Shown one piece after another: positions 15,938 to 46,580 of a stretch of 64,000 nucleotides of DNA (position 1 is its first letter; each line of letters opens with the position of its first letter). The DNA lies in assembly GCF_932294415.1 (NCBI RefSeq), contig NC_065535.1, positions 88,676,862-88,740,861 of the forward strand. The letters are read 5' to 3'. The notes beneath the pieces were generated by a model. It was not told the DNA's origin. It saw only the letters and a program-made list of their open reading frames with translations, and did no database searches. A program made the translations under genes and the position numbers. This stretch comes from Quercus robur. Its lineage: Eukaryota; Streptophyta; Magnoliopsida; Fagales; Fagaceae.

Positions 15938-17138
15938 GGAATTTGGGGATGGCGTAGTGACTCACTACCTGAGCCAATTTTGGATTCAATTCTTGAATTC
16001 AAAGATTGCATATTAATTCACTTCTTGGGCTAATAAAGACTAACTTCTTCAGTTCCAAATTAATTCATTTTGTAAGTTGGCCCCCTTGGGGAACATGCCA
16101 ATCCATTTTTTTTTCCACTGTTGAGTTAGTATGGCATGTAGTGATTTTTGTAATTTCTCACACGCCATTTAGCTCTTGTCAAGATTGTGTTTCAACGAGA
16201 CATAATGCCCTTTCCATCCCCAAGAGTTTGAAGCCTTTAACTTGACAGTGAAAACAAATTGATTTTTACAAAAGTTGTTCCTCAGAACTATTCCTTATTC
16301 TCCAGAACAGTTTGGCAAGCATGACTTCATTCATTAGAAGCAATTTGGCTTAGAAAAAAAAAATTCCACCATATTCCAAAATATCATTGACCTTTTCAAC
16401 AAAATTTAGACTAAGACCCAAGCAATTGGAGGACTTCACTATTTTTACTCTCAAGTGCTCCTGCACTAAATCTTAAACACCATAAGACAATTAGGACTAA
16501 AGTAAATTGCTCTTTTCTGGGGCGAGTTTGGAATTGCACTTATAGGTTTCATCCTCCCATTCTTGCTCAAATTATTTATTGGAGGGGATAAATAGGCTTA
16601 GAGAGTACACACTTCACATTCAATGCACTTTGTATTTGTGTATCTTTTTGTTAAATTAGATCGTGTAGTAGTTTTAGAGGGAATGAAGTCTGGTGTTAGA
16701 GGGAACAAGACGATGCAAATAACACACACAAGAGACAGTTTTTTTATTTTTTTTATTTTAATATAAAAAATAAAATAAAATAAAAAAAGCTAGAAAAGGG
16801 AGAGTTTATACAGCAGAATAGTTATGGGAAAAAAAAATGTAATCTGCCAATGACGTTTTGACATGATGGCAATTCCAACTTTGTGATCTTGCCAATGCCA
16901 GCAAACAACATACACCCTTGTTGACGCCACTATTATTGTAAACAAACAACTCCATAGTTGACACTATTTTTATTGTATACAAATCACAACGTACCAAATC
17001 AATTGTTGTAAAATTTGTTGTCCCTGGACTTATTGTACATTCTGAAACAACATTAACTGGATAGATAACCGCCACTCTATAGTAAACACATGGAAAAGTA
17101 ATCTTTCCTTCTGATTCCTGGAACAAGCAATAGGGACT

Positions 17139-20100
17139 TCAAGATGCACTGACTAGTTCCAAACTTGGCATTGAGTTTCCTGACAAGAAGGCTTTAATGA
17201 GTGCCAAAGCTAGTTTGGGCTTATGCAAAGGAACTTCGTGTCCTGCTCCCCGGACTGATACAAAGGTAAGCCCAGCATAGTCTTGAGTCCATCCACCCAC
17301 CTGTTCAACAATTTTTCTTAATTTCTAGTGTCTACTGCCATATGTGGTAAATTTACTTATTGATACATTATAGAGATGAAGCAAGTAGTCTACAACTGAA
17401 AAACAGACTGTTTTTATATCAAGAGAGAAGTATATGATAACAACAACAACAACAACAACAAAGCTTGGAGAAGGAAATGGTTATTTTAACTTAATATACC
17501 TGCCCATCATCATACCAGGCACGCCAAGGTCTCGAAGTCGGAAGCTTAAGAGCATCTATACTCAACCGGGTGGCTGTAACTGGGATTATGGCATCTGTAT
17601 CACCACTGTCACAGAGGAGAGATGAATAAAACTTGGATCATTACCAGAAGTTTTTCTGAAATCACTTGAATCAGAAAGAAAAAACCATTTGCCAGCAGAA
17701 CCAGAATGATGCAGGAAGCGTGAAAACAATTTTAGTTCAATTTAATTTTAGAAATCAATTTTATTTTTACAATTTTTCCATTAGACATGCATGTGACCAT
17801 TTGCAGGGTGCTTCCTAGCTTTGATACCAGCAATTAATAAGGAAGCACGTGCATGTGATTTTTGGCAGGTACAGGTCAATGCAAATGTTCATTACACACG
17901 AAAGCAATACTACAGGCAGTAAATGTATGCAAAACATATGCTAGATGTCAACAGGAACCTGAACATCCATATACGCAGTCCTGAATGAATCAGCTCATGG
18001 TAAACGTCCAGCACTGTCCGAGGAGAATCCTTCCAGTTAGTATTTATCAATTCGCTACAAAACAACATAAGTAAAAATTATGAGGGCTTCCATCTTTCCA
18101 TCACTTCAGTTAAGGTTATCAAAGTACGCAGATCTTATGTACATAGAAGATCGCAAGAAGAAGATTTATGTCAAGTTCTTTAGGGAGAAAAAAACTCATA
18201 AACTCAACATAATATGTGGCGCAGAGAGCAGAAGCAAGCTACAATTTCCACAAGTGACGTCAAAAGATCAATTTCTTTTAAATAGTAACATCTAAATAAA
18301 AAATTAAAACTTCCAGCATATCACCGATTAAGATGCTATGATAAGTTACTTAAAATTGAATGACTTGTATGTAGAATGGGGAGCTGATGGCATCAAGTAT
18401 TAGTTAAAAATATGAAGGCATCACATTACACTAGGCAGCGTTTGCTCAGGTATATACTAATCCACACCTGGATATATTAACTACAAGTTTAAAACAAAGA
18501 TGCATGACTTCCTCACTCAATTTAATAAGACAGTGTATTCCAGTGGCAGGCTAAAAAGCCTAAATGCAGCTCCTTCCCTTAAATACTTCGTCCAAATCCC
18601 ACCCTAATGGCTGGATTCTCTACCACGTCCCTTACCCTCTCCATCCCTTAGCTGCATTATACACGTTCTGAATCATTGTAACTCGATCAAAACTTAAAGT
18701 TCATATTAGCGAATATAAGAATGTTGCTTTAATCATTTGGGACTGCTACCTGCACATTTGTGGCGTACCTTCACCAGGAAATTCCAATTAACTAAAAGGA
18801 ATACTTGAGCTACTGACATTTTCTTATGGCCAAATTATTCACCCACCTTAGGTTGCACATTTGTGGCGTACCTTCACCAGGAAATTCCAATTAACTAAAA
18901 GGAATACTTGAGCTACTGACATTTTCTTATGGCCAAATTATTCACCCACCTTAGGTGGCAATGCAATTATAAGTTTTTATATTCAAAGAGCTATATACCT
19001 GCAGGTTGACCATTTAGATGGTGCAAAAGCTGGATCAACATGAAGTGCCTTTTGTACCAAAGGTAAATTGAAGTATACAACTGAGTGCTCCTCGGTGCAG
19101 GGATCGTACTTCTCACCAATGTGACCAACCATCTATAAGATGACATTACATATCATTAACCATCTGACCAGATGTTTTAGCTATTTCAGAGGCATCATGA
19201 AAAATCTTTCCAGAAAAGAAAAAAAAAATAATTAATTTCCAATTTCATATTAGATTTGGTAACTATTGAGGCCAAAGCTGGTTAAATAAACTAACATAGC
19301 TCTAGAACTAAAATAGGAGAAGTTTGATCCAAGACTTGATAGTTCCGAACTCTGAATATGGCAGAGAATCTATACACTACTCTTTGACGGTGACAGGTAT
19401 GTACATTGATTTAGCACAGAAAAGAAATGCAAGGACATAGATAATAGATGACCAAAACAATATTATATTAATATTTTCAATTTTTATTATCTATAGCCAT
19501 ATATGATATATATATACACACATAATTTTGTTTAGCAAGAAACTTTCTCTGGCATTAAAGTACTGCTAAGCAAGTTTAGATTACTGTTGTAAACATATTT
19601 GATTTAATCCATCTAAATAAGTTGAGGAACAAAAGGCAAAGTCAAGGAATCTTCCAGAATGAGAAAAAGAGTTTGACCTTTGAATATTTTCAATATCCAT
19701 GGCAGTTTTCTTCAAGCATAATAAAGCTATGTAAAATCTACACTAAATTCCTCTAGAGTCCTTAAGTTGAGCAGCCACAATCACTATTTTGGGAAGAAGT
19801 ACAGTTCTAATATACTGTTTTTGTATCACCTTGGTAGATTTTTAATTCTGACAACAAAAAGAGTAGTGATATGGAATGACGTGCAATAAACCACATTTCC
19901 ATCACTGTGGCAAAATGAAGTTTGCTACTAATTATTTGAGGCATTAAGAAACAGAACCATCTCCAAAGCAGAGAGAAAATTATCTGACTACAATCAAGTA
20001 GTAGTTTGTTAGACAGAACTATTCTATCCACAGAAGGAAATGTATGAACTGAAATTTCCATTGAGAACCATCTAGATAGCTAAAAAGGACCTGATTGACA

Positions 20101-46059: not shown

Positions 46060-46505
46060 AGTCAGGGCAAAGCCAGAAATGATAAAGGCCAAACAAATCC
46101 GAAAGGAAAAACAGATTAGAGGGGGAGAGTTATTATACAAAACATTAGAAATTTGATGGGTTACTAATTTAGCAAGAGCATTAGCATAGCGATTGGCTTT
46201 TCGATGGCAATGAGTCACCTTAATTTGAAAAACTTGGGAAATTAGGAGCATGCAATCAGTCACAAGAGAGGAATTAGTAGCGTTAGAATTTCCAACATCG
46301 TTCATTAGACTTATCAGGTCTGCAACTACTTTAGCATCCAATTCAACTTCTAGAACATTAATCTGCAGATTTAAACACATAGTAAACCTGCGAATTAATG
46401 CTCTAGAAGTTGAATTGAATGTTAAAGTAGTTGCAAACCTGATGAACAATGTTGGAAATTCTAATACTACTAATTTCTCTCTTGTGGCTAATTGCTTTAC
46501 CACTT
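46060..46505. pseudogene. Inverted pair of LINE-type RNase H fragments (unit B)
   Basis: This is the unit B counterpart of 26318-26700. The minus strand reads VTHCHRKANRYANALAKLVT and INVLEVELDAKVVADL. The plus strand from about 46393 reads RINALEVELNVKVVANLMNN and NVGNSNTTNFSLVANC. The frames are short and unsupported by flanking coding sequence, so these are relics and not a gene. Confidence 0.75.
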
Positions 46506-46580
46506 AATACGAATTACAATTGCCAGGTGTGTGTATATATATATTAAGAAGAAAATTTTAAATAATCAAAATTGCCAGGA

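Follow-up and report, generated by a model that had tools for sequence, protein, structure and literature searches.

The presence of two serine carboxypeptidase genes in close succession on one contig of Quercus robur raises the question of how the second copy originated and what kind of join placed it beside the first. The window considered here, by which we mean the whole analysed stretch of 64,000 nucleotides (C2:88676862-88740861), contains no N and sits in a 98-Mb contig of the 786-Mb, 42-contig genome. The pair goes back to an old tandem gene duplication of an ordinary kind, whose junction is non-homologous, and a single tandem event at the DNA level, joined without homology and followed by drift, would explain the locus overall with a probability of about 0.85. 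The interest of the locus lies in being a clear and roughly datable plant tandem duplication without homologous repeats at its edges: a clean, ordinary example of plant gene family growth, and one data point on the origin of tandem plant genes and on the later rewriting of their upstream DNA.

Structure and edges of the duplication

The comparison of the window with itself by BLASTN returned one colinear, same-strand chain (15940/26771 to 26773/46583), whose last 3 bases overshoot the unit edge. After the edges were rechecked, homology was seen to stop at 15940 on the left, at 46580 on the right and, internally, at the abutting pair 26770/26771, with the end of unit A touching the start of unit B and nothing between them. 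The units and their junction are the following:

15940..26770, unit A (10,831 bp)
26771..46580, unit B (19,810 bp)
26765..26779, junction ACAGGA/AATTTGGGG, with the end of A at 26770 and the start of B at 26771

Because the end of unit A abuts the start of unit B, the two units are a direct tandem duplication with a readable junction: the copies are adjacent, colinear and on the same strand, introns and flanks included, and their homology ends at non-matching outer flanks and at a single abutting internal junction. This agrees with the original prediction, which had claimed a direct tandem duplication with order and orientation common to the whole gene and its flanks, and had named a self-comparison as the check; the colinear chain, in which the flanks are included, the identity of the units and the nine intron positions shared by the genes bear it out. 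The edges it gave at 26770/26771 and 46580 were exact, and only the left outer edge, placed at 15938, is shifted by two bases to 15940.

A block-wise alignment of the units, made of 13 chosen blocks that were each aligned singly, gives 90.6% identity over 8473 aligned sites (463 transitions and 333 transversions; K2P 0.101), and a single global alignment gives 7732 identical positions out of 8574 (90.2%). The first 500 bp of A and B score 645 against each other, compared with a shuffled maximum of 29. Unit B is 9.0 kb longer than unit A, and several blocks of more than 1 kb are present in one copy only. In a search of the 786-Mb genome, the first 401 bp of the unit had 2 matches, both in the window, and BLASTN listed no further match to the units of at least 120 bp within 20 kb on either side of the window.

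It is highly improbable that the assembly has placed two haplotypes of one locus in tandem. A false haplotypic duplication would likewise show one unique flank on each side, but a divergence of about 9-10%, 66.2 nonsynonymous differences and the several single-copy blocks longer than 1 kb are large for alleles. The N-free window and the 98-Mb contig also argue against such an artefact, as does the distance of at least 0.3-0.8 Mb between the gene pair and any related cluster among the matches scored.

Two intact serine carboxypeptidase genes

Each unit holds a complete gene, both of them modelled by hand and without transcripts:

17139..24000, minus strand, gene A, serine carboxypeptidase (Peptidase_S10), 10 exons, 475 amino acids, intact
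27947..38483, minus strand, gene B, serine carboxypeptidase (Peptidase_S10), 10 exons, 472 amino acids, intact

For gene A, the ATG at 24000 was taken as the start, and an in-frame ATG is also found at 24030. Both genes have nine GT-AG introns at the same positions, with no stop and no frameshift, and their proteins agree at 410 of 471 aligned residues. The Pfam Peptidase_S10 profile is matched over its full length in both proteins (profile positions 1-420 of 420; 488.6 bits for A and 491.8 bits for B), and the best PDB match of B is wheat serine carboxypeptidase II (1BCR, 1WHS; chain A, E 1.8e-99; chain B, E 4.3e-56). The motifs GESYAG, SGDTDA and GAGHEV, which we take to be those of the Ser-Asp-His triad, occur in both translations. 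A and B are predicted to be Peptidase_S10 serine carboxypeptidases. They have the same full-length Peptidase_S10 as the SCPL family and wheat serine carboxypeptidase II, with no clear difference seen, and, judging by resemblance, presumably belong to SCPL clade II, the peptidase side.

When the B protein was compared with the genome, 101 exon-level matches were found (from 90 scored candidates out of 360). Among the matches scored, the strongest one outside the window, at C37:58.72 Mb, has 70% identity over residues 36-131, and A and B are each other's closest relatives. Related genes form clusters, for example at C2:6.4-6.6, C2:88.0-88.1, C4:77.4-77.6 and C35:37.9-38.1 Mb, and clustering is usual for the serine carboxypeptidase family in this genome. 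To the left of unit A, the minus strand of the window also contains a long pentatricopeptide-repeat reading frame at 5596-8289, which counts 898 residues between its bounding stops. Such a frame, the intron-rich genes and the abundance of mobile-element-like repeats are what a flowering plant would be expected to show.

Absence of homologous repeats at the edges

If unequal crossing over between a pair of repeats on either side of the locus (non-allelic homologous recombination) had produced the pair, edge repeats of such an age should still be about 90% alike. We found no such likeness: four comparisons of a flank with the opposite unit edge, which include the left flank against the unit end and the right flank against the unit start, and one comparison of flank with flank gave scores of 19-23, values that 106-197 of 200 shuffles reached or exceeded, and extended homology common to the edges stood above the shuffles in none of the five. 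In the genome search, which skips simple repeats and very common words, the right outer flank had 1 match. The left outer flank had, besides itself, 9 matches (73-83% identity, within positions 55-415 of the 500 of the query), and these matches elsewhere end at least 85 bp short of the edge. Since the outer flanks show no likeness to the opposite unit edges above shuffles, and the genome search brought up no further match for the unit start or the right flank, recombination between repeats is very unlikely. It would draw some support from the clusters of related genes elsewhere in the genome, and from the retroelement-derived inverted repeat and AT-rich repeated sequence that are found near the unit end:

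26474..26679, close to where unit A ends: inverted repeat that overlaps a reading frame of RVT_3 type (retroelement RNase H-like)
46252..46495, counterpart of this inverted repeat in unit B, likewise close to the unit end
26721..26736, AT dinucleotide run, 34 bp before the junction

Both the inverted repeat and the AT run fall within the final 300 bp of the unit. RVT_3 was matched in the minus-strand frames overlapping the inverted repeat (E 1.1e-10 and 7.4e-10), and a profile search gave no RVT_3 match in the plus-strand frame 46229-46504. A search with 26500-27000 returned 36 genome matches, of which most fall on the RVT_3 part or on an AT-rich stretch; among them is a weak, AT-rich match elsewhere in the genome (80%, query 203-274) that extends to 26773. 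The unit end is therefore not unique sequence, but no counterpart of its repeat sequence was found at the left edge when the flank comparisons were set against shuffles. The statement in the original prediction that the end sequence shows no transposon must be amended in part, given the inverted repeat overlapping an RVT_3 domain and the AT-rich sequence there, and its view that the edges carry no homologous repeats stands, with 0 of 5 comparisons above shuffles and only 2 and 1 genome matches for the unit start and right flank.

At the junction itself, strict homology is 0 bp. The trinucleotide GGA is common to all three edges only with one extra A allowed, and among 20,000 random pairs from the window 7.1% show a strict match of at least 3 bp and 6.3% a 3-nt match within a 1-nt shift. 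Microhomology, which had been proposed for this junction, is not claimed in view of these frequencies; at a divergence of about 10% the junction bases may have changed, so that 0 bp and a short microhomology cannot be told apart. The accompanying preference for end joining or copying over recombination between repeats is retained, on the strength of the missing edge homology, and its microhomology part is not supported.

Origin of the pair

In the lack of extended edge homology, end joining or template switching is the most likely source of the join. One event would have copied about 11 kb, comprising a complete serine carboxypeptidase gene and both flanks, head to tail, the join resulting either from template switching during replication or from the end joining of two breaks on homologues or sister chromatids. 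These two routes are indistinguishable here and jointly provide the best account. The retroelement-derived inverted repeat and AT run at the unit end may have encouraged the breakage or the join. The copies would then have drifted to about 9-10% divergence, with B gaining, or A losing, several kb of mobile-element-like sequence, including a 6-kb block near the start codon of B. Both genes kept an intact reading frame, and their amino-acid changes are concentrated in the linker and at the end of the large chain.

Within the units and around them, mobile-element-like sequence is frequent, as would suit the idea that a Helitron- or Mutator-like element captured the locus and re-inserted it beside its source. 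Such a capture is extremely unlikely: the unit ends, by inspection only, have neither inverted termini nor a target-site duplication, and the copy abuts its source exactly.

Returning to the non-homologous join, a rice study (PMC4812662) assigns 27 duplicated-gene cases to end joining (14), transposable elements (12) and homologous recombination (1), and the rice CNVs to non-homologous mechanisms (52.98%), mobile element insertion (44.28%) and NAHR (0.48%). On these CNV shares, the mechanism proposed for the oak pair would be a common one. The duplicated rice genes described there resemble the oak pair in having micro or no breakpoint homology, but they are non-co-linear copies and CNVs between genomes, whereas the oak pair is older, head-to-tail and within one genome. 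Kochia EPSPS (PMC6808082) is likewise a direct tandem duplication of a plant gene. A mobile element lies between its repeats and unequal crossing over was proposed for it, in contrast to the oak units, which have no intervening sequence. No paper on the locus itself was recognised among those found.

Divergence and age of the copies

The Nei-Gojobori method over 465 codons gives a Ks of 0.112 (bootstrap 0.074-0.151), a Ka of 0.064 and a ratio of 0.57 (0.39-0.91), and an alignment in which the variable C-terminal end is paired as well yields a Ks of 0.126 and a Ka of 0.072, the synonymous divergence being about 0.11-0.13. Rates of 2.5e-9 to 1.5e-8 per site and year were assumed, with which a Ks of 0.112 would correspond to about 4-22 million years. 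The nonsynonymous differences are unevenly spread, as 29.7 of the 66.2 fall in 86 of the 465 codons (232-317), and a stretch that rich appeared in 1 of 2000 permutations. By comparison with wheat carboxypeptidase II, these codons correspond to the final portion of chain A together with the segment that separates it from chain B. The ratio is 0.82 within them, against 0.45 outside, and this value is compatible with relaxed constraint and does not show positive selection. Unequal speed of the two genes was also considered. Relative to two paralogues of the same genome, A and B have 9 and 13 changes (394 sites, L033) and 8 and 11 changes (401 sites, L034), counts given without a formal test and with stretches failing a local-identity filter omitted, and no clear difference is seen.

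The upstream part of the units is more divergent than the non-coding gene part (K2P 0.164 vs 0.089; chi-square P 6.8e-14), which departs from the prediction of one duplication with uniform drift. A transition excess was rejected as the cause of the faster upstream divergence (ts/tv 1.59 vs 1.34, P 0.32). The difference could mean that the gene bodies make the duplication look too young, conversion between the two genes having kept the gene part alike and the upstream part having retained its full divergence. An identical run of 129 bp (22025-22153 in A and 33382-33510 in B), which spans the whole of intron 3 and was reached in 0.5% of 1000 simulations at a uniform 9% divergence, would agree with this, but the run was chosen after the fact and may be either a conversion tract or the result of constraint. 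Mismatch per 300 sites amounts to 9.3-11.7% in the 3' flank, 4.3-12% in the gene part and 11-20% in the upstream part. The 3' flank, although outside the gene, thus has a level similar to that of the gene part and lower than in most of the upstream DNA. The change in level therefore misses the gene ends, and faster change or poorer alignment in the upstream part, which is repeat-derived and hard to align, would be a simpler reading than gene conversion. We regard the older, converted pair as rather unlikely and prefer the single duplication followed by drift.

Insertions and mobile-element-like DNA

Target-site duplications were sought at 15 indels between the copies. Two features of B are the following:

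35534..35979, a near-palindrome of 424 bp inserted into intron 2 and bordered on each side by the 11-bp direct repeat CTAAATGAGAG
38665..44716, block of 6.05 kb that A lacks almost entirely, situated from about 0.18 kb upstream of the B start codon

The 424-bp insertion proper extends over 35545-35968, is self-inverse at 366 of 417 aligned positions and, with its 11-bp target-site duplication and an empty site in A, is well supported. In A, 624 bp (24816-25439) with ATAATG on both sides and an empty site in B are probably an insertion with a target-site duplication, and the 17-bp repeat found at 38504-38568 looks like a tandem duplication of short length. The remaining 12 indels comprise 3 without a candidate and 9 with only 5-8-bp candidates, which may be due to chance.

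Two copies of the promoter-proximal segment lie in the 6.05-kb block. The inverted one (39550-39684) has 76% identity to B and, over 39604-39684, 77% to A; the direct one (40616-40771) has 71% identity to B and, over 38 bp, 89% to A. As A and B are themselves 74% alike in this segment, the copies may predate the duplication and have been lost from A. A composite history of a duplicate still diverging, in which the promoter of B was rebuilt by mobile-element-like DNA and by copies, direct and inverted, of its own promoter segment, the proteins split at the end of the chain and the linker, and the gene bodies were partly homogenised by conversion, is a doubtful one in our estimation, and A and B may differ in expression or function.

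Further repeats are seen in the window. Short segments, among them the promoter-proximal one of gene B, recur densely in direct and inverted orientation over 38613-41790, and one of the repeats there is shared with 47842-48034. Intron 7 of gene A has a tandem duplication of 103 bp (18751-18960, 99% identical) that is single-copy in B, and another of about 269 bp (89% identical) lies at 58781-59286. To the right of unit B, an inverted repeat at 48442-49556, with arms of about 300 bp that are 93% identical and 511 bp apart, is foldback or DNA-transposon-like. It is followed by an LTR-retrotransposon-like element (50679-54078), whose two direct repeats (89% identical) are each bordered on the outside by TATAT and which contains a tandem repeat of 79 bp (52830-53194); a stretch related to this element starts just outside the window (L009:1-608, 82%).
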